Notes under the pieces: model-generated
Database searches by the model: none
The model's input: only the letters and a program-made list of their open reading frames with translations
What the model was told of the DNA's origin: nothing
Translations under genes and position numbers: made by a program
Source: Owenweeksia sp.
Lineage (GTDB): Bacteria; Bacteroidota; Bacteroidia; Flavobacteriales; Schleiferiaceae
Reading direction: 5' to 3'
DNA: 64,000 bases
NCBI GenBank assembly: GCA_002695025.1
Contig: NZNV01000008.1
Coordinates: forward strand, 1-64,000
Part shown: piece by piece, positions 3,631 through 13,515 of the stretch
Position numbering within the stretch: position 1 is the first letter of the stretch
Layout of the letters: each line of letters begins with the position of its first letter

Positions 3631-4023
3631 TTACAATTCTTTTCGAATCTTATCCGCAATACGGGCAAACTCCTCATCCGGGAATTTAAGTTTAGGGCGG
3701 CTAAAATCAATATCACTTACCTGGTTGATAGGGATCAGGTGAATATGCGCATGGGGTACTTCCAGACCCAGCACCGCTACACCTACCCTCTTACAAGGAA
3801 TAGCCTTGCCAATAGCATGAGCTACCTTTTGCGCAAAGGCCCAGAGTCCTTTATATTCCTCAGTACTGATGTCAAAAATATAGTCTACCTCCTTCTTTGG
3901 AATAACAAGGGTATGTCCTTCATGCAGGGGGTTAATGTCCAGAAAGGCAAAATAGTGCTCATCCTCAGCTATTATATAACTAGGAATTTCTCCGTCTACT
4001 ATTTTGGAAAAAATACTACTCAT
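3631..4023 (-). CDS. HIT family protein (histidine triad nucleotide hydrolase)
   Basis: A 130-residue HIT-domain protein. The family hydrolyses nucleoside phosphoramidates and related nucleotides. The signature reads HAHIHLIP with H91, H93 and H95; the N-terminal SIFSKIVDGEIPS and FLDINPLHEGHTLVIPK blocks are typical of the HINT/PKCI branch. It follows greA by 5 nt on the same strand and is probably co-transcribed with it, a common pairing in Bacteroidota. The exact substrate is unknown. Confidence 0.9.
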   Translation of the reverse strand: MSSIFSKIVDGEIPSYIIAEDEHYFAFLDINPLHEGHTLVIPKKEVDYIFDISTEEYKGLWAFAQKVAHAIGKAIPCKRVGVAVLGLEVPHAHIHLIPINQVSDIDFSRPKLKFPDEEFARIADKIRKEL

Positions 4024-4028
4024 GGTGA

Positions 4029-4505
4029 TTAATCCATACCGATTTCCTCGATCTCAAAGGTCATTTTGCCGGCCGGCACCTGTATTTCAACCTGGTCGCC
4101 AACTTTTTTACCCATAAGACCCTTACCAATGGGAGAGTTCACGGAGATCTTACCGGTCTTAATATCCGATTCTGATTCGGAAACCAGTTTATACTTCATT
4201 TTGGCCTTATTGGCCACATTCTTAATAGTAACGGTAGAAAGCACCATAACCTTGGAGGTATCCATTTTGGAACTATCCAGGATACGTGCATTGGCCAGGG
4301 TGTCTTCCAATTTGCTGATCTTCATTTCGAGAAGACCCTGAGCTTCTTTGGCGGCATCATATTCCGCATTTTCAGAAAGGTCTCCCTTATCACGTGCCTC
4401 AGCAATTTGTTGGGAAATGGCAGGACGCTCCACACTTTTCATATGATCCAATTCGTCCTTAAGCTTTTGCAAGCCCTCCTTGGTGAAGTAATTAATGTTT
4501 GCCAT
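4029..4505 (-). CDS. greA: Transcription elongation factor GreA
   Basis: Binds RNA polymerase through the secondary channel and stimulates cleavage of backtracked transcripts. The 158 residues match E. coli GreA exactly in length: an N-terminal coiled coil (about residues 1-75, with SENAEYDAAKE carrying the acidic tip) and a C-terminal FKBP-like domain (SPIGKGLMGKKVGD). I start at the ATG at 4505 (MANINYFTKEG). A further in-frame ATG at 4562 would add 19 residues encoded across a terminator-like hairpin, which is unlikely to be coding. Upstream lie the hairpin (4525-4553) and a candidate promoter (4560-4567), so the hairpin is in the greA leader. Confidence 0.95.
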   Translation of the reverse strand: MANINYFTKEGLQKLKDELDHMKSVERPAISQQIAEARDKGDLSENAEYDAAKEAQGLLEMKISKLEDTLANARILDSSKMDTSKVMVLSTVTIKNVANKAKMKYKLVSESESDIKTGKISVNSPIGKGLMGKKVGDQVEIQVPAGKMTFEIEEIGMD

Positions 4506-4524
4506 ACGATATATATTAAAAAAC

Positions 4525-4553
4525 AGAAAAAGACCACAAAATGGTCTTTTTCT
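4525..4553 (-). terminator. Terminator-like hairpin in the greA leader
   Basis: Perfect 12-bp inverted repeat, arms 4525-4536 and 4542-4553, loop of 5. Read on the minus strand the second arm ends in five T residues and is followed by G and six T residues, the form of an intrinsic terminator. It can end transcripts from the PorV-like gene upstream. It also sits between the putative greA promoter and the greA ATG, so it could act as a leader terminator for greA itself. The plus-strand orientation has a shorter T run. Confidence 0.7.
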
Positions 4554-4559
4554 ATTGCG

Positions 4560-4591: not shown

Positions 4592-5638
4592 TTACAGCAT
4601 AAATTGTATTCCGATGGAGTGTACCCCATTAAAAGGATTAGTGGCCCGGTATGAATAGTCCAGACCAAACTTGGTTCCGCTATCACCAAGGGGCACTGCC
4701 AGGGTTGCTCCGGCACTCAGTCCGGTAAACACTGAAGTACGTTGCTCGTATACGCGGTTGTCCTGGATGGTGTAACCCACACGAACGCCCACAATCTCCT
4801 TTACCATATACTGGGCACCAACTATATACTGATCCTTTTCAAATGAATTGGATTGGAAGGCAGCCGCAAAGGTGAGCACCTGAGAATCAAAAATAAAATC
4901 ATAGCTACCACCCAAGCTAAGGTTAGTAGGTAATTCAAAGGTAGCACTACGCTCATCATACGCCTGTACATAACCTCCCTGGGGCACAGTAAGGTTTACA
5001 CCTTTGCCATTTCCGGAGTATGAAACCGAAGGTCCCACATTCTTCAGGGTAATACCAAATTTCAGTTGCTTATCCTTACCAGTGATATATTGAACACCGG
5101 CATCAAAGCAAAGCGCATTCACACTCAGGTTATCTGAAGCCTGCGAGAACAGTTTAATGTTCACACCTCCGTAGATACTTTCTGTAAATTTTTGGGCATA
5201 GCTTATACCTATAGTCACGGCACTCGGGTTAATGGTACCTATACCACCATCCGGGTTATCAACGGTGGTACGTTCCCATTCGCCATAATCAAGTCCTACA
5301 AAACTGGCACCGAGTACTCCATTGGAGCCAACTTTCTGATTAAAGCCTGCTGCGCTGATATTAATACCACCGCCTACCAGCCATTGTGTACTGGTAAATG
5401 CAACATCGGTTCGCTTGGTTTGCGCTGTACCGGCAATGTTCAGAAAACTGGCTTCCACACCTTCTACTCCGGCTATATTAACGCCACCCCATCCCGTATT
5501 ACGGGCCCAGGGATTGATCAATAACTCAGAAGCTCCTGCTGATCCTGAACGCTGGGGGTTACCAGCTTGTATTTGGCCTGCTACTAATAATGCAGCCGAT
5601 AAAACGAGTGCTCTTCTAGCGGATTTTTTCATCTTCAA
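4592..5638 (-). CDS. PorV/PorQ-like outer membrane beta-barrel protein
   Basis: A 348-residue exported protein with a basic N-terminus and hydrophobic signal segment (about residues 8-25, ending near IQAGNP). The body is made of short alternating beta strands and ends in the aromatic IGIQFML strand, as in outer membrane barrels. The early SAGASELLINPWARNTGWGG stretch resembles the start of PorV/PorQ proteins, which shuttle or anchor T9SS cargo. It is the last gene of a three-gene minus-strand operon, 12 nt after the 1371-residue protein gene, so it may serve that protein. Whether it is a true PorV or a dedicated paralogue cannot be decided here. Confidence 0.75.
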   Translation of the reverse strand: MKMKKSARRALVLSAALLVAGQIQAGNPQRSGSAGASELLINPWARNTGWGGVNIAGVEGVEASFLNIAGTAQTKRTDVAFTSTQWLVGGGINISAAGFNQKVGSNGVLGASFVGLDYGEWERTTVDNPDGGIGTINPSAVTIGISYAQKFTESIYGGVNIKLFSQASDNLSVNALCFDAGVQYITGKDKQLKFGITLKNVGPSVSYSGNGKGVNLTVPQGGYVQAYDERSATFELPTNLSLGGSYDFIFDSQVLTFAAAFQSNSFEKDQYIVGAQYMVKEIVGVRVGYTIQDNRVYEQRTSVFTGLSAGATLAVPLGDSGTKFGLDYSYRATNPFNGVHSIGIQFML

Positions 5639-5650
5639 ATCTTAGATTTT

Positions 5651-8600
5651 TTAGAATGCATTTAAGTCAACCGGCCTCATGGTACCCATCCACTTAATCA
5701 CTTTTTCTCCAACTGGCCCGGCATCCACGTGAATGAGATATATACCACTGGCAATGGGTACATTGAAATCATTCTTCAGATCCCACTCCACGTAAGTCAG
5801 GTCATTGGCTTTATTAATAGTCCTTATCAAAGTACCGTTAGTCATGAAAATACTGATCTTACAATTTCCAGGAAGATTGGTAATCTTAACGATATTATCC
5901 AACTGACTATCTTCATATTGTGAAGACCCGTTATAAGGGTTTGGTACCACTTTGATCAGATCAAGCGCCTTATTGGCTACTTCCATTACACCCGTTTCAG
6001 GAATATATCCATCGGTAGAAAAAAGATACTGAGGAATACCATTATTAGGACGATCTATCTCCACCTCTTCGTTGAACCCGGTTTTTTGGTAAGGCTTACC
6101 CATTCTCAAGGAAACTTTTGCATCCGTTGGTATATCACTATAGGACTCAAACACATACTCTGGGCTGGAAACCATTGGTAAGCCAATCCAGTACATGCTA
6201 CCGAATACAGTTTGCTGATTACGTACCTTACCCTGATCCATCTGGTTCAGATCCTCCAGTAGTGGGAAGGCAGATATACTGTCGTTCTTATACGTCATAT
6301 CTATTGCCGGATCTGTAGACCTTAATTGAATAGAATCCGCAAAAACATATACTGCGTGCATACCGCCCAGAGCCCAACCATTCAATAGTCTCTGCTCGTT
6401 GGGAGAAGGGTTCCAGATCATATCTCCACCGTTTTCACTCTTTAACCATGAAGACTCACCGAACGCCATACACAGCCTACGGCCGGTCTCTACGTTGATG
6501 GCATAACCTGGGAAATAGCTCCAACCGGTTGCCGCTTCCGGGTTATTTGGATTGGGTACTAATCCTCCATTCCCATCTTTATCCATAGTAGTTCCGGAGC
6601 GCAGTGTAAAGTTAGCTTTACCGCCATCATTACTTTCCGCTACCACACCCAATTCAATCACCGGGCAACGGGTCCATTTACTCTGATCACGGGTAATAAC
6701 GATATCCACGTTACCGATATCAGAAACGGGGTACATATTTCCGAAGTTACCGGTTCTCAAAGGACGCCCGGAGTTAGGGTTATTAGGGTTATAAGCCTCA
6801 CTACTGGCATAAGCTGCCGGTGCCCAGGTTCCATTCAGGAATGTTTCAAACGCTCCCTGTGGATCACTACGGGTAGGATTGGTGTTAGGGAACTTATAAT
6901 CATCATAAGGAGACCTTGATGAGGCACTGAAACCTTGTGTGCCTGCTAAAATCCAGTTCTTTGGAGTTTCAGAATCATCATCCTCAACACCAGTAAGCCA
7001 AGGCTCACCAGGATTATCAAACACTATTTCTCCTCCTATTACACCGTTATTAAAGGTTCCGTCAGGATCACCACTACCCGGTCTGGGCTGGTTCGTAAAC
7101 GTAAGTGAGATACCTAATTCATCAATTATTTGCTCACCGAGAAAGGATATATCATACTCTGATTCGGCATAAACCTCGTCCCCAGCAACATTGGTTAGTG
7201 TCCAGTTTGCATTAGCCGTAGCATCTGAAAAAGTAAGTTTGTACGTTCCCCCTTTAACATTGTATGGGTCTATTACTTTCACATCAAAAGGACCAGATCC
7301 CACAAGGTACTTGATCTCATTATTGACTTTATTGAAGACTATAGACTCTTCCGATTCTTCCGCTATCCTGAGGAAATTACCACTATTACCGGCACCATCC
7401 AGTCTGGTGATACCTACCTCGTCACCATAAGCCGAATTCAGTGTGGTTCCTCCATTCCTGGATTGGATCTTACTTGGAATAGCCAGATAAGGTTTTTGGC
7501 CGTTACCCACCTTTCTACCAGCCAGGAAGGGTTCCTTCTGGGAAGGAGCAGAAAGGTTACGTGGATCGGCCTCCACAAACTGATTCTGCGCATAAGCGAT
7601 CACATAGTAATAGTACTCTTTATGGTTTACCAACCTGCGGTCACCTTGTGCAAATGCATCCTCCGTAAAGCGATAGGTTAATTCAATACCGTTGTTGTTC
7701 GCTTCCACGGTCATATCCTGAGGCACCAAAGCACCGTTTTCCAGGTCCTGATCCAATACGAAATTCACTAATTGACCCACATCATTTTTAAGGTCAGACT
7801 GAGCAACCAAACGGGATTGCTGAGTATTGTATATCTCATCGAGCGCAATATCAGGACCGTTTACTTGGAATATCTGGAATCCTTCGAAACGATAGCTGAA
7901 ATAACCAGCCTTTGTAGCGCTATCAACCTGAGCTGCATTCCAGAGGTCATTACCAGCGCTGTCCTTAGGTACCGCGATCCTTGGGTCTATCTGATCATAA
8001 CCAATAGTAGCCGGGTTAAAAGCATTTTTGATCTTGAAGATCAGTTCACGATCCAGCTCAACAATCTCAATCTCTACCGGAGAACCAGTAGTAGGGCCTT
8101 CCAATATTTCAAAACAGTTGTCAAATAATTGCTGGGCTTTATCATCAGCAAGTATCACATCATTTACAGACGCAAAGAGATCAGAACTGTTAAAGTTACG
8201 TGCCCAAACTACCCCGGTAGTAATGAAGTTAAGTGCTCCCGGAGCCAGACTGAACGGACCTGCAGAGTGCAGACCACGCTTATCAGCATCGTTATCCGGA
8301 GATTCCCACCAACCACCATTGGCAATTGGTTGTGAAGGTTCGTAAGCACCGGTAGTATCGTATGAAAGACCTGGATAGGCAAAAAAGGTTTTATCACCTG
8401 AACCATCAGCAGTATAACCGTCACCATTGGTGGTGATACCCTTACCTGAAGGAGATTCGATCACCAGGTTGTTACCGTTTTTCCAGGTTACCCTTAGGTA
8501 GTTGTAAAATTCTGCTGCCACAGTAGGGTCAGAGGTATTGGCCACACCACCACTACCGGTACGGTTATAATACATGAAACCGGACATGATAATACGTTCA

Positions 8601-9766
8601 TTGATGCCCAGGTTTGGGTTCTCGGCCACACAGCTGTCTCCACGTTTCACTCCATCCACGCAGCCGTCACGATCATTGTCTATCCCATCGTTATAGTCTG
8701 CAAAAGGTCCTTGGAAAAAGTCAAAACCTACGGCAGGCGGGTTTAGGCCGTAACCACGTGGACCAGAGTCATTGGATTTTGCGTTATAACAATATCCTAA
8801 TCCGCGAGCAATATCACAACCTATAATGTCATCATCCGAATTACCCAGATCCGGGTCAAACCAAGTACCGAAGTAGGTAGAGTCCAGCTTAAAGGTAGAC
8901 TTATTGATAATCCGGTAGTTATTAAAGGTCATGTTGTTGATCTCGTCATTGGAGGCAAAGGCAAATGCCTGGGCACGGATTTCAAAACCTAGTGCTCCAG
9001 CCTGGGTCTCAGTATGCTTATTACCTTTATCATTATATACCCACCAAATAGTTTCATCTCCATACAGAAGGTCTGTTTCCTTAGACTGGCATTCGGGGGT
9101 TTCTGTTCCAAAGTAATATCCGGGGTAGTCATACTGCCACTCATAGGCACCGGGAGTACCGCTTGAATCCACTTCAAAGAAAGGTGCCAGTTTATTGCCC
9201 TCAGGACCGTTTCCTGGCCAATCGCGGATAACCAGGGGAACGTTACCTTCATAGCCGGGGAAGCGGTCACCCGCATCACAATCGGGGTTAGTTTTACACT
9301 CCAGCCATTGCCTGTGTATATCCACTTGGTCCTTATAAATAAGCCAGTGACGATCATAGTCGCGACAGGTAGATGCATCAATAGACGCCTGGTCGTCCAG
9401 GGGGCCGGGCCAAAAATCCACACCCCGGGTACGATAGGTCATGGCCGCCAGTTTGAGCTGACCTGCCTGATCTAAACCACCTAGCCAAAGTGAACCGGCA
9501 AACATGGAATGTTTACCACTACCCTTGGGCACTTCATAGCGGGCGTTATCAAGATCCCACCACATATCACCACTACCCAGGATCCTTGCACGAACGTTAT
9601 TGATACTAAGATCCTGATCAGAGATGGAAGCCTGGCAATCTTCAGCCAGTGCCTTCATGGCAGCCTTTTTCTGATTATTACTGTTTTTGGGTGGGTATTC
9701 ACGAGCTGAAAGACTCAAAACACCGCAAACCATTAAAAATGCGAGTATTAAATTCTTTACCTTCAT
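5651..9766 (-). CDS. Very large secreted protein with C-terminal FlgD-like/T9SS-type domain
   Basis: A 1371-residue exported protein; signal peptide at residues 1-22 (MKVKNLILAFLMVCGVLSLS). The body is rich in Asn, Asp, Gly and aromatic residues, with an Asp-rich calcium-site-like segment (DYNDGIDNDRDGCVDG) near residue 360, as in thrombospondin type 3 motifs. The last 100 residues form a FlgD-Ig/T9SS type A-like domain: VPNPYNG, then the strand pattern KISIFMTNGTLIRTI and SGIYLIHVD. Eleven or so residues follow the usual domain end. It lies between a TonB-dependent receptor gene (29 nt upstream) and a PorV-like gene (12 nt downstream). Export by T9SS and display on the surface are inferred; the ligand is unknown. 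Confidence 0.7.
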   Translation of the reverse strand: MKVKNLILAFLMVCGVLSLSAREYPPKNSNNQKKAAMKALAEDCQASISDQDLSINNVRARILGSGDMWWDLDNARYEVPKGSGKHSMFAGSLWLGGLDQAGQLKLAAMTYRTRGVDFWPGPLDDQASIDASTCRDYDRHWLIYKDQVDIHRQWLECKTNPDCDAGDRFPGYEGNVPLVIRDWPGNGPEGNKLAPFFEVDSSGTPGAYEWQYDYPGYYFGTETPECQSKETDLLYGDETIWWVYNDKGNKHTETQAGALGFEIRAQAFAFASNDEINNMTFNNYRIINKSTFKLDSTYFGTWFDPDLGNSDDDIIGCDIARGLGYCYNAKSNDSGPRGYGLNPPAVGFDFFQGPFADYNDGIDNDRDGCVDGVKRGDSCVAENPNLGINERIIMSGFMYYNRTGSGGVANTSDPTVAAEFYNYLRVTWKNGNNLVIESPSGKGITTNGDGYTADGSGDKTFFAYPGLSYDTTGAYEPSQPIANGGWWESPDNDADKRGLHSAGPFSLAPGALNFITTGVVWARNFNSSDLFASVNDVILADDKAQQLFDNCFEILEGPTTGSPVEIEIVELDRELIFKIKNAFNPATIGYDQIDPRIAVPKDSAGNDLWNAAQVDSATKAGYFSYRFEGFQIFQVNGPDIALDEIYNTQQSRLVAQSDLKNDVGQLVNFVLDQDLENGALVPQDMTVEANNNGIELTYRFTEDAFAQGDRRLVNHKEYYYYVIAYAQNQFVEADPRNLSAPSQKEPFLAGRKVGNGQKPYLAIPSKIQSRNGGTTLNSAYGDEVGITRLDGAGNSGNFLRIAEESEESIVFNKVNNEIKYLVGSGPFDVKVIDPYNVKGGTYKLTFSDATANANWTLTNVAGDEVYAESEYDISFLGEQIIDELGISLTFTNQPRPGSGDPDGTFNNGVIGGEIVFDNPGEPWLTGVEDDDSETPKNWILAGTQGFSASSRSPYDDYKFPNTNPTRSDPQGAFETFLNGTWAPAAYASSEAYNPNNPNSGRPLRTGNFGNMYPVSDIGNVDIVITRDQSKWTRCPVIELGVVAESNDGGKANFTLRSGTTMDKDGNGGLVPNPNNPEAATGWSYFPGYAINVETGRRLCMAFGESSWLKSENGGDMIWNPSPNEQRLLNGWALGGMHAVYVFADSIQLRSTDPAIDMTYKNDSISAFPLLEDLNQMDQGKVRNQQTVFGSMYWIGLPMVSSPEYVFESYSDIPTDAKVSLRMGKPYQKTGFNEEVEIDRPNNGIPQYLFSTDGYIPETGVMEVANKALDLIKVVPNPYNGSSQYEDSQLDNIVKITNLPGNCKISIFMTNGTLIRTINKANDLTYVEWDLKNDFNVPIASGIYLIHVDAGPVGEKVIKWMGTMRPVDLNAF

Positions 9767-9795
9767 AAGTCCAATTATATCTTAACTGCGTTTTC

Positions 9796-12700
9796 TTAAA
9801 AGTTATACGAGATTCCCAGGCGCACCCTACGAGGCAATGAATAATTGCTTCGGTTAGCTACCCTCCTGTTATACTGGTCAACAAATGCACGAGCATTGGT
9901 TTGCTGAGCAATCTGACTCTGAGCAGAAGAGGAAGCCAGGTAACCATCATCATCAGGGCTACCTGTATAAGGATATACCCTAACTACGTTTTGTGTGTTG
10001 AAGAGGTTAAGTATTTGCACATAAACCTCCAGGGTTTGATTACGTTTTTCTTTGGAAACCCTGAATACCTTATTGATACGGGCGTCAAAAGTAGTTGACC
10101 AAGGCAAACGGGCACCGTTAATCTGGCCTTCAACCTGAGATATAGAAGAAGGGTTATTAAGGGTAACCGGATATGGATCATCACGCCTGGTATATGGCTG
10201 TCCTGAAAGGGCATTCATAGTAATGTTGATACCAGCATTTTCAAAAACCCTGGAATTACCCCATACCGGACCATTGTAGTTAGCTCCGGAACCATAACGG
10301 TAATCAAACCTAACCAGAATTTGGTGACGGTTGTCAAATGTAAGAGGAAGGATGTACCTGAGGTTGGGTTGCCCGGAGTTGGCCAGGTTAGCACCTGAGT
10401 TGGCGCTTGATCCGGTACCATCCGCAAACTGCAGGGTATAGTTGGCATCCAGCTTAATATTATTGGTTCTACGTAACTCGTACTCCAATGAGAAACCTTT
10501 AACTGTACCAAAATCAAGGTTACCGTAAGCTACATAAGTAATAGGATACGCCTGAGTGAAGGCAACCGTTTGGATAAGGTCTCTCAATTCACGGTAGAAG
10601 GCAGAAATCTTAAGTGCACTTCTATCTGTAAGAGTCTGTTTAAAGCCAAGTTCGTATTCCGTAGTTTTCTGAGGGCGCAGGTCTGGGTTGTTCAGGATAC
10701 CACTCGCTCTTTTGTTGGAGAGGTCAAGGTACTGGAATGGATCCAGTCGGCTCAAACCAGTGGTAGGCCTCTGGGCAAGCACATCATAGTGAGCAATGAA
10801 CAGGGCCTCATCCGTAATCGGGAAGTTGAACGCAATACGGGGCATCACAACGGTTTGAGGATCATAATCCTTAAATGAAGCACTGGTAGGAGTCTGAGCT
10901 GATAATCCCTCATCGTCTTCAGATTGAATCGGAGGGGTTACCAGGAAAGGCTTGATACTACCTGCCGCTGCAGAGGCAAGGCTTTGAGGATTACTCAAAG
11001 GATCCCCGTTCTGATCATACCATTGATTATTGGATGGATCACGGTAACCTACAATACCTGCTGTACCGTAGTCAAAGCTGCTTACGTATACTACATAGTC
11101 GCCACCTACAGATGCTGGGATACCTTCTTCACGAAGATCAGTATTAGGTAAGTCTTTTACGGTATAAACCGGATATAATACATAGGGGTCTTTCAACACC
11201 TGCTGGTTCAGGTCAAAGCGGTCCACACGAACACCTACGTTAAAGGTAAGATCGTTGAATGTGAACTGATCCTGAATGTAACCAGCTATATATATAGGTT
11301 GGAATGCCCCAACAGGACGAGTGAAAATAGTATCATTATCTATAACCTCGGTTTCCTGGAAGAAATCAGTAATTGTTGGCTGACGATCCAGGACATTACC
11401 GGTGTAGTCATAACCATAATATCCTATGAAATTAACACCGTTAGGGTTGATCAACTCATCAGGAGAGAAAAAGTCAAGAGAAAAGAGAGAAGGGTCCAAC
11501 TCGTGGATATTGATCTTCTCACGGCTGTCAATAGCCATATTCAATGCCTTTCTTACGTTACGGTCAAACATGCTTTGAGCGGTAGCATTATAAAGGCGAT
11601 TGTAATTAACGGTATCCTGATACACACCATCCTCAGTAACCAAAATAGGGTTATCCAGATCCAGTTCCTGGATTCCGTCATTCTGCAGGAGGTTCATTCT
11701 CTGCCAAAGACCGGCAGCATCAAGAGCGTAAGCGCGGTCACTCCTTTGCTCATATTCAAAACCTACGATGAGGGAGTGATCCTTAATATCAAAGTTAGTA
11801 GAAGCCGTAACCCTGAACTGGCTGTTGCGTTGCTTATAATAATTGGCTGATCTAACGTTTATCGCATTGAAAGAATGGATAGCGCCCGGACTACCCCACA
11901 AGCCATAGGATGCACGTGGATCCGTACCGTTGATAGGCACCCCGGCACCCTGGATAGCAGCGATGGTTTGAGTAGAAAGACCGGGGTTATCAGCAGCCAG
12001 GTCAAAATAGTTGGAAGTATAATTTCCGGTAATACGGTTATTCTCACCTTGTTCAAAGTCAACTCGTACAGGATTATCTCCAACGTAAGTCCAGCCTTCA
12101 ATTACACCGTTAGCAGTATCCTCTACATTATATACATAGAAGGGTCTTTCAATAACATCAAATTTACCGATGTGCCCGTAGCGGAAAAAGTCTTCCTCAT
12201 AGCGCTCATCAAAGATGCGGGTATTGGTACGGGTATAATCCAACTGGATGTTGTAAAAAGCGTTCTTAATCAGGCTTTCGTTATCAGCTGCAGAACCGAA
12301 TTGCTGCTGGAAGCGCACATAACTACTCCAATCTGAATCAATTTGTCTGAGGTTATTCTTATAGTTAAAGATATGTTGCAGGTAGTTATCACGCTTATCA
12401 TTACTGTAGGTCCAGCGACCTCCTAAAGTAAGGTTCGTGCTTTTGCTGGTTTTTATCTGAATGTTTCCGTTCAGCCTGATCTCATTGCTGTAGCTATTAG
12501 GCCTGAACTGAACATCAGAAAGCTGGTCCTCATTTACATATTCCACTTTATACTGTACACTGTTACCGGAAGGGTCTAACAACAGTGGATTAGTTTCAAT
12601 ATCAAGCAACACATCATCGTTTACCGCTACATAAGGTACCGCTGAAGGAGAGTTTTCCTTTTGATACTCAAATTCACTCGAAAACAGGAAACCTATAATA

Positions 12701-13515
12701 GGTTGGTCCTGCTTGTTCTTATATATAGGACCTCCCATGGTAAAAGCGGCCAGGTTATAATCATAGTCACCAAAGAAATCGGTAGATAAAGCTTCAAAGG
12801 GTGAAGAACTCAGTAATTCCACATTACCAAAGTACTGACCGCTGGGGCCACGTGTAGTAGTACTGATCACACCACCAACGGCATCACCATACTGGGCAGG
12901 AAGACCCCCGGTGATAACTTCCGTCTGCTGGATAGCGGCCTGGGGAATATTGGTACTTCCTCTAACTTTTACACCATCAATAAAGTATACGGTACCTTCA
13001 TCCCGTGCACCACGTATGTTGGTACTTCCATCTGCATTTTGAGTTACACCCGCAGCCTGGGCAGCTACTGAGGTAATATCCCGTACCGCCATATTCTGAA
13101 TATCTTCAGCGGTAGTTACTTTACTGGATTTGGTCTTATCGATCAACGGAGCTTCATAGGTAATAACCACTTCATCCAGTTCAGAGGTAGCCTCTCTCAT
13201 TTTAAAATCCTGCAGAGTAGGCGCGTTGGGCGAAATGATAATATCGGAAAGAGTTATCTTAGTATAACCCAGAAAACTTACCTCTACATTGTATTCACCT
13301 GGTGCAAGCGGGTTGATGTTGTATTTACCATCAAAATCTGTAGATGTTCCGGCAACAATAGAACCAGCATCGTCTTTAACCACAACGTTAACGGATGGTA
13401 AGGTTTCACCGGTTTTGGCATCTGTTACAGTTCCCCTCAAAGAACCTGGCCTGGTCTGCGCAAAAGAATAGAATGACGCGATTGTCAATAATAGCGCTAG
13501 TAGCTTCTTTCCCAT
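9796..13515 (-). CDS. TonB-dependent receptor with N-terminal carboxypeptidase-regulatory-like domain
   Basis: A 1239-residue outer membrane receptor. Signal peptide at residues 1-19, then a carboxypeptidase-D regulatory-like beta domain (about 22-110, SLRGTVTDAKTGETLPSVNV). The plug domain follows (about 130-230, with YFIDGVKVRGS and VISTTTRGPSG), then the 22-strand barrel ending in the aromatic LGISYNF. This is first in an operon with the 1371-residue protein and the PorV-like protein. It lacks a SusD neighbour, so a glycan-specific Sus system is unlikely. The substrate is unknown; it may act with the large protein as a receptor/surface-partner pair. Confidence 0.85.
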   Translation of the reverse strand: MGKKLLALLLTIASFYSFAQTRPGSLRGTVTDAKTGETLPSVNVVVKDDAGSIVAGTSTDFDGKYNINPLAPGEYNVEVSFLGYTKITLSDIIISPNAPTLQDFKMREATSELDEVVITYEAPLIDKTKSSKVTTAEDIQNMAVRDITSVAAQAAGVTQNADGSTNIRGARDEGTVYFIDGVKVRGSTNIPQAAIQQTEVITGGLPAQYGDAVGGVISTTTRGPSGQYFGNVELLSSSPFEALSTDFFGDYDYNLAAFTMGGPIYKNKQDQPIIGFLFSSEFEYQKENSPSAVPYVAVNDDVLLDIETNPLLLDPSGNSVQYKVEYVNEDQLSDVQFRPNSYSNEIRLNGNIQIKTSKSTNLTLGGRWTYSNDKRDNYLQHIFNYKNNLRQIDSDWSSYVRFQQQFGSAADNESLIKNAFYNIQLDYTRTNTRIFDERYEEDFFRYGHIGKFDVIERPFYVYNVEDTANGVIEGWTYVGDNPVRVDFEQGENNRITGNYTSNYFDLAADNPGLSTQTIAAIQGAGVPINGTDPRASYGLWGSPGAIHSFNAINVRSANYYKQRNSQFRVTASTNFDIKDHSLIVGFEYEQRSDRAYALDAAGLWQRMNLLQNDGIQELDLDNPILVTEDGVYQDTVNYNRLYNATAQSMFDRNVRKALNMAIDSREKINIHELDPSLFSLDFFSPDELINPNGVNFIGYYGYDYTGNVLDRQPTITDFFQETEVIDNDTIFTRPVGAFQPIYIAGYIQDQFTFNDLTFNVGVRVDRFDLNQQVLKDPYVLYPVYTVKDLPNTDLREEGIPASVGGDYVVYVSSFDYGTAGIVGYRDPSNNQWYDQNGDPLSNPQSLASAAAGSIKPFLVTPPIQSEDDEGLSAQTPTSASFKDYDPQTVVMPRIAFNFPITDEALFIAHYDVLAQRPTTGLSRLDPFQYLDLSNKRASGILNNPDLRPQKTTEYELGFKQTLTDRSALKISAFYRELRDLIQTVAFTQAYPITYVAYGNLDFGTVKGFSLEYELRRTNNIKLDANYTLQFADGTGSSANSGANLANSGQPNLRYILPLTFDNRHQILVRFDYRYGSGANYNGPVWGNSRVFENAGINITMNALSGQPYTRRDDPYPVTLNNPSSISQVEGQINGARLPWSTTFDARINKVFRVSKEKRNQTLEVYVQILNLFNTQNVVRVYPYTGSPDDDGYLASSSAQSQIAQQTNARAFVDQYNRRVANRSNYSLPRRVRLGISYNF

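Follow-up and report, generated by a model that had tools for sequence, protein, structure and literature searches.

The locus and its question

What does a TonB-dependent receptor do beside a giant secreted protein and a barrel of the PorV kind? The question is raised by three adjoining genes in the first 64,000 nucleotides of contig NZNV01000008.1 (C11 below) of Owenweeksia sp. (GenBank assembly GCA_002695025.1); this whole stretch is called the window here. The genes, on the minus strand, encode the receptor (TBDR), a 1371-residue secreted protein (BIG) and the barrel (POR), in this order, and are separated by 29 nt (TBDR/BIG) and 12 nt (BIG/POR). A preliminary description, made from the sequence, had given the same coordinates, strand, lengths and gaps. 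We found that the three genes are a conserved unit. At slightly under an even chance, we read them as a three-part outer-membrane uptake unit, in which BIG would be delivered by the type IX secretion system (T9SS) and would serve as the barrel-anchored surface partner of a TonB importer.

The three genes are kept together in relatives

Named genomes were scanned with BIG peptides, BIG being the sole bait, and the best 80 of 105 confirmed stretches were kept. The titles of these 80 loci name Flavobacteriales, Bacteroidales, Chitinophagales, Saprospiraceae, Sphingobacteriales and others. The upstream neighbour of BIG was TBDR in 77/80 and the downstream neighbour was POR in 75/80. A contig edge explains the missing TBDR in L012 and L065 and the missing POR in L013, L061, L064 and L074; the one remaining exception is weighed below. 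On the same strand, greA was found in 65/80 loci and a HIT-family gene in 60/80, with a 2-hydroxyacid dehydrogenase gene in 38/80 (the families were checked for greA, HIT and one of the 38 dehydrogenases). Where all five genes were present, the order was TBDR-BIG-POR-greA-HIT on one strand in 52/52.

A BIG match at E<=0.001 was obtained for 75 of 99 relatives, a few of the matches being partial. BIG occurs mostly as one full-length copy per genome, and is present in genomes of about 1.5-2 Mb. In two loci a second BIG lies behind the cassette, as one frame of 1383 aa at L041:15203-19354 and in four pieces at L078:15423-23623.

A profile of 33 BIG sequences was applied to 392 genomes from the phylum at E<=1e-80. 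It matched 52 of them, a lower bound because of this cut-off, and 44 of the matching genomes were outside the class of the window genome, where often the N-terminal half alone was matched. Loci were read out from 20 of these 44 genomes: BIG and POR stood together in 20/20, and TBDR was upstream in 20/20 (the TBDR of L156 is seen in L135, on the same contig, and that of L153 is interrupted by the contig end). Neighbours in these loci mostly differ from the greA-HIT surroundings, indicating that the three genes are the unit. Separation of the genes in relatives, which the preliminary description had named as the outcome that would count against it, was thus not what we found in the named or the other-class loci, because the three genes form a conserved unit.

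Pairwise distances of BIG correlated with those of POR at 0.90 and of TBDR at 0.87, compared with 0.73 for greA+HIT, and the partial correlation of BIG and POR given greA+HIT was 0.80; part of this gap may be noise, because the greA+HIT control is shorter.

Sixteen greA loci from genomes without a BIG match contained no BIG or POR match; in this set, L174 starts 0.7 kb ahead of greA, L184 spans 5 kb, and the surroundings used for L181 belong to a weaker greA match. In L176 a TBDR match lies on the opposite strand and two small genes precede greA, and in L179 and L185, which have no BIG match, the 2-hydroxyacid dehydrogenase gene directly precedes greA. These three surroundings look as an empty site would, and loss of the three-gene unit is the simplest reading of the BIG-free loci.

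SprA, the T9SS translocon (TIGR04189), was found in 52/52 BIG-positive genomes against 319/392 overall. The two sets of genomes were matched by eye, using the full list of 319 positives and 20 of the 73 negatives, among which 0/52 appeared.

TBDR is a TonB-dependent receptor apart from SusC

TBDR carries CarboxypepD_reg, Plug (PF07715, 42.2 vs 23.9) and barrel (PF00593, 50.4 vs 27) domains above the Pfam cut-offs, and its Plug and barrel over curated cut-offs make it a TonB-dependent receptor. The SusC/RagA model (TIGR04056, cut-off 368 bits) did not match it at E<=1, and assignment to SusC was rejected on this basis; other genes of the window genome pass that cut-off. The receptor had been described as lacking a SusD partner, in agreement with the absence of PF07980 matches from C11; it has no adjacent SusD with which to form a SusCD pair. 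The four PF07980 matches of the genome lie on C7, C9, C10 and C13. A regular expression for the TonB box matched just 4/70 TBDRs and the aligned region is only partly conserved, so we make no claim about a TonB box.

POR forms a clade of its own

The barrel had been called PorV/PorQ-like. POR exceeds the cut-offs of Pfam PorV (31.7 vs 27) and NF033709 PorV_fam (146.8 vs 90), which places it in the PorV/PorQ family, but it is far below the equivalog models of PorV (NF033710, 59.6/250), PorQ (NF033711, 75.7/220) and PorV2 (19.8/325). A careful tree of 62 proteins of the PorV family, unrooted and subsampled, gave a support of 100/100 for the POR clade, 100/100 for PorV and 100/99 for PorQ. The labels of both PorQ rows, and of all but one of the five PorV rows, are backed by scores above the NCBIfam equivalog cut-offs; the four PorV genes concerned adjoin PorU. 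This tree omits six long or odd rows, 12 of the 21 cassette rows from Bacteroidia and some of the other-class rows; an earlier quick tree of the family had very long branches. Judged from the sequences, POR is an orthologous clade apart from PorV and PorQ. Orthology with either was rejected, because POR is below the equivalog cut-offs and outside both clades.

BIG ends in a PorZ-like domain with a conserved tail

By eye, BIG has a Sec signal peptide without a lipobox. The protein was modelled as two halves, residues 21-760 (mean predicted local distance difference test score, pLDDT, 85.1; predicted template modelling score, pTM, 0.84) and 740-1371 (pLDDT 87.2, pTM 0.84; mainly beta). The modelled C-terminal domain (CTD) aligned with that of PorZ (5m11) at Z 10.6, root-mean-square deviation (rmsd) 2.5, 91 aligned residues and 26% identity, and with PorU (6za2) at Z 8.6, rmsd 2.8 and 89 aligned residues. 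PorZ was also the only match below E 0.001 in a Foldseek search with the C-terminal model. In these models the fold is closest to the PorZ CTD, the PorZ score standing clear of the others. In the wide sense, BIG thus has a T9SS C-terminal domain, immunoglobulin (Ig)-like and resembling solved CTDs.

At the sequence level, the PorZ model (NF052228) gave window BIG 25.1 bits against a cut-off of 260 and matched in the CTD only, which does not make BIG a PorZ. TIGR04183, the model of type A sorting domains, gave 16.8 bits for the whole protein and 19.1 for the C-terminal half, below its cut-off of 23. In a set of 58 homologues (L075 having been left out of 59 listed sequences), matches at E<=0.1 were obtained with the PorZ model for 55/58, with TIGR04183 for 54/58 and with PorU for 42/58. 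The large exported protein with a FlgD/T9SS-like CTD that had been predicted is therefore borne out by these weak PorZ and TIGR04183 matches and by the Ig-like, T9SS-type end domain of the model, FlgD being also among the Foldseek matches. With the CTD fold and the SprA co-occurrence, BIG looks like T9SS-type cargo, not a periplasmic protein.

Beyond the last strand of the BIG model the chain runs on for about 10 residues, and this tail, about 9 residues longer than type A ends, is conserved. The stretch from SGxY to the C-terminus measures 32 residues in 64/76 homologues and 31, 33 or 39 in 7, the motif being missed in 5. In type A ends the same distance is 23 residues in 6/9, these nine having been chosen with a pattern that itself restricts their length. 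Of the BIG homologues, 72/76 terminate in Phe or Tyr and 74/76 have Asp at -5. Other-class BIGs end in Phe or Tyr in 17/19, or 17/20 counting L154; the BIG relative of L240 has another terminal residue, and L252 ends in Phe. The extra residues had been noticed before as unlike an ordinary type A domain, and this observation extends to the family.

The N-terminal half resembles a domain of sugar-active enzymes

No Pfam family matched BIG above its cut-off, and a PDB sequence search with BIG gave a best E of 0.16. The N-terminal model aligned with 9ju0 at Z 18.7, rmsd 3.1 and 251 residues; the next matches, at Z of about 18 to 15, were cellodextrin phosphorylase, glucoamylase and glycoside hydrolase (GH) entries of GH116, GH94 and GH65. 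The modelled N-terminal half thus resembles the sandwich domain of sugar-active enzymes. In sugar phosphorylases and hydrolases this part is called the super-beta-sandwich and is followed by a helical catalytic barrel. No helical catalytic barrel was seen in the two half models of BIG, the remainder of which is mainly beta.

BIG is conserved across its whole length. An Asp-rich segment at residues 357-379, described earlier as calcium-type, did not prove to be a family feature: it is shortened to <12 residues in 20/33 aligned homologues, and a DGxDN-like motif is present in 10/33.

The BIG profile also matches, with its N-terminal part, two other proteins of the window genome, at L116:8411-10081 and L117:9716-12205. 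The L117 protein has an ordinary type A sorting domain at its end (TIGR04183, 38.3 bits).

Receptor-cargo-barrel triads with other cargo proteins

PorV-family matches numbered 16 in G124, 15 in G116, 13 in G264, 6 in the window genome, 3 in G061 and 2 in G105. Among the 44 PorV-family genes of G124, G116 and G264, three other-class genomes, 20 stand in triads of TBDR, CTD protein and barrel, a further 3 directly behind a TBDR and 5 behind a CTD protein only; a TBDR is directly in the same run for 23/44. Plug matches in these genomes numbered 48, 32 and 16, respectively (96 in total), and by our estimate of about 10,500 genes, chance would place about one of the 44 barrel genes no more than two genes downstream of a TBDR. 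BIG cassettes make up four of the 20 triads; in the remaining 16 the cargo proteins are different, most of them ending like GKFAIIK. SusD matches were 38 in G061, 7 in G124, 4 in the window genome and 0 in both G116 and G264.

Other arrangements of PorV-family barrels were also seen. A second receptor-barrel set lies in the window genome at L115:8139-14652 (G000:C11, about 223-230 kb, with the pair near G000:C11:224369), and also in L228 and L236. Its order is an upstream secreted protein, a TBDR, a PorV-family barrel and then a protein ending with an NHL repeat (L115 and L228; Pfam), and the barrels of the three loci group together in the quick tree. In three other-class genomes (L233, L239 and L255) PorV-family barrels are in tandem, the first and second members forming two groups in the quick tree.

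Layout in the window

The features are collected in Table 1. Terminator-like sites in the region numbered 12 against 10.2 in shuffles, and the hairpin between POR and greA has the most pairs. This hairpin hints that the three genes are probably one transcript, a hint only in view of the shuffles. A promoter scan of the region gave 18 sites, fewer than in shuffles (22.5).

Table 1. Features of the cassette and its 3' side, in window positions
Feature	Position	Strand	Description
TBDR, TonB-dependent receptor	9796..13515	-	1239 aa; signal peptide (by eye), CarboxypepD_reg, Plug, beta-barrel; without SusC/RagA match
BIG, secreted protein	5651..9766	-	1371 aa; signal peptide (by eye)
BIG, order of parts			about 44-554 sandwich; about 556-735 fibronectin type III-like (by eye, sequence); more beta domains; CTD 1262-1363; tail 1362-1371
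BIG sandwich domain (residues about 44-554)	8105..9637	-	like the N-terminal part of sugar phosphorylases/hydrolases
BIG CTD and tail (residues 1262-1371)	5651..5983	-	PorZ-like T9SS-type CTD, conserved tail
POR, PorV/PorQ-family outer-membrane barrel	4592..5638	-	348 aa, TTG start; own clade
Terminator-like hairpin between POR and greA	4522..4556	-	16 pairs, T tail
greA, 3'-side neighbour	4029..4502	-	outside proposed machine
HIT-family gene, 3'-side neighbour	3631..4023	-	outside proposed machine

Proposed mechanism

PorV anchors PorU and PorQ anchors PorZ (PMC5562754). PorZ and PorU keep their CTDs, with one (PorZ) and three (PorU) extra residues (PMC11285876). Dedicated barrels serve type B CTDs (PMC12618676), and a review has proposed that CTDs are shielded from cleavage by cognate barrels of the PorV-like kind (PMC10202324).

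By analogy with these pairs, BIG would be exported by Sec through its signal peptide, and its CTD would carry it through the T9SS translocon SprA. POR would then take the CTD from the translocon and hold it uncleaved, as PorQ does for PorZ, so that BIG would stay at the surface with neither a lipid nor an anionic lipopolysaccharide (A-LPS) anchor. The surface part of BIG, including its sandwich domain like that of sugar-active enzymes, would lie over or beside TBDR as the capture partner, and TonB would energise import through TBDR; a first guess at the ligand is a glycan or glycoconjugate. The scheme would be like SusCD, with barrel-held T9SS cargo in place of the surface lipoprotein. A role of POR as shuttle or anchor appears likelier than that of an exporter by itself, given PorQ-PorZ (PMC5562754, PMC12618676). 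In the preliminary description, the barrel was suggested to be a dedicated exporter or anchor. Its three-gene unit, T9SS-type cargo and private barrel find support, POR being its own clade; the exporter role is refined in this way, and the calcium segment is dropped.

Several results weigh against this uptake scheme. L024 has BIG without TBDR and POR in a long contig, the only miss that a contig end does not explain (L024:9941-14164, a BIG of 1407 aa, flanked on both sides by about 10 kb that contain no TBDR or POR match). In L240, BIG and POR are present, but a CTD-like protein replaces TBDR (L240:3447-7809; POR follows the BIG relative, and the CTD-like protein has 1126 aa). The SprA co-occurrence consists of raw counts that ignore kinship, as does the inverse SusD relation, which comes from five genomes, and 16/44 PorV-family genes have neither partner (one of them, G264 C4:222393, had no locus behind the count and was scored as partnerless). 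In the CTD comparison, PorU (Z 8.6) is tied with the Ig domain of Vpr, a non-T9SS peptidase (7.9), and the CTDs of mirolase (7.6), RemA (6.7) and NucA (6.6) score at the level of fibronectin domains. With the N-terminal model as a whole, Foldseek gave low TM-scores (best 0.24) and only one domain matches; a shared fold is no proof of function. Finally, the TIGR04183 cut-off failed as a divider of BIG from cleaved cargo: four PorU proteins and 2/10 other BIG homologues (24.0 and 24.2) pass it. Because the four PorU proteins pass, the model cannot separate cleaved from uncleaved CTDs; this lowers the standing of the scheme a little, and PorU may cleave the BIG CTD.

Alternative explanations

The unit might instead be a machine of envelope biogenesis or housekeeping, for example in maintenance or recycling of surface glycans, with TBDR as its TonB-driven partner and not a nutrient importer. 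The mostly single full-length copy, kept also in genomes of the size given above, the fixed place beside greA-HIT (in 38/80 also the dehydrogenase) and the conservation of BIG over its whole length would all fit such a role. We nevertheless consider it rather unlikely: families that keep greA-HIT lack the unit, which is thus not a requirement throughout the phylum, the domains of TBDR are those usual in importers, and the other triads occur in several copies, like uptake loci. A lower probability still is given to BIG as ordinary T9SS cargo, for which POR would be a spare shuttle; PorU would remove the CTD, BIG would be released or fixed to A-LPS, and the receptor would be a co-regulated neighbour. 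The CTD is indeed related to type A, as the TIGR04183 matches of the homologues show, and type A cargoes use PorV (PMC12618676). This improbable account has to face a CTD nearest to the uncleaved PorZ domain and bearing a conserved extra tail, the much higher TIGR04183 score of the ordinary cargo of the same genome (L117), and the distinct POR clade kept beside BIG.

Nor do we give much weight to the idea that the genes are neighbours merely by old conserved gene order. Unrelated in function, greA and HIT do keep the same place, but the other-class loci keep the three genes together among other neighbours, BIG-free greA loci have no POR match, and 16 further triads follow the same plan with other cargo proteins. 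This explanation is already disfavoured, and we regard it as very improbable.

Relation to known systems

The cassette is like PorQ-PorZ and PorV-PorU in combining a PorV-family barrel with a large CTD protein, and the PorZ CTD is the nearest fold. It differs in that POR is a separate clade, BIG matches PorZ and PorU in the CTD only and has a longer tail than either, and a TBDR is joined to the pair. PorP/SprF-like shuttles similarly have a dedicated barrel gene directly downstream of the cargo gene (PMC12618676), but the CTD type (B) and the barrel model are different, and the arrangement described there has no TBDR. SusCD/RagAB shares the TBDR with a private surface partner and the many copies in some lineages, whereas here TBDR has no SusC match, no SusD is adjacent and the partner is probably T9SS-delivered. 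In BamG-BamH, a FadL-like barrel holds a surface protein (PMC12578637), but BamH is a lipoprotein, and the accessible portions describe no triad of TBDR, CTD protein and PorV-like barrel (PMC12611786, PMC12578637). Membership in the newly described Bacteroidota BAM (beta-barrel assembly machinery) complex was rejected, its subunits being a FadL-like barrel and surface lipoproteins (PMC12611786, PMC12578637). In the open-access literature, as far as its accessible portions go and with subscription papers and preprints outside the scope, we found no report of a TBDR with T9SS cargo and a private PorV-family barrel.

Implications

We tentatively suggest, as a possibility we hold with some doubt, that the cassette represents a phylum-ancestral third way of TonB uptake, in which a T9SS-cargo lid has its uncleaved CTD parked in a dedicated PorV-like barrel. 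The plan would have multiplied into many paralogous triads in lineages where SusD genes are few or absent, and would have been largely replaced by lipoprotein-based SusCD in derived Bacteroidia. If this is true, the PorV family would largely consist of private anchors, with PorV and PorQ as two special cases. The cassette ties TonB import, type IX secretion and PorV-type shuttles, which have been studied apart, into one conserved unit, and with it the open question of why some T9SS CTDs stay uncleaved can be put to a natural test. It also raises the possibility that in some classes of the phylum surface uptake follows a different plan from SusCD.

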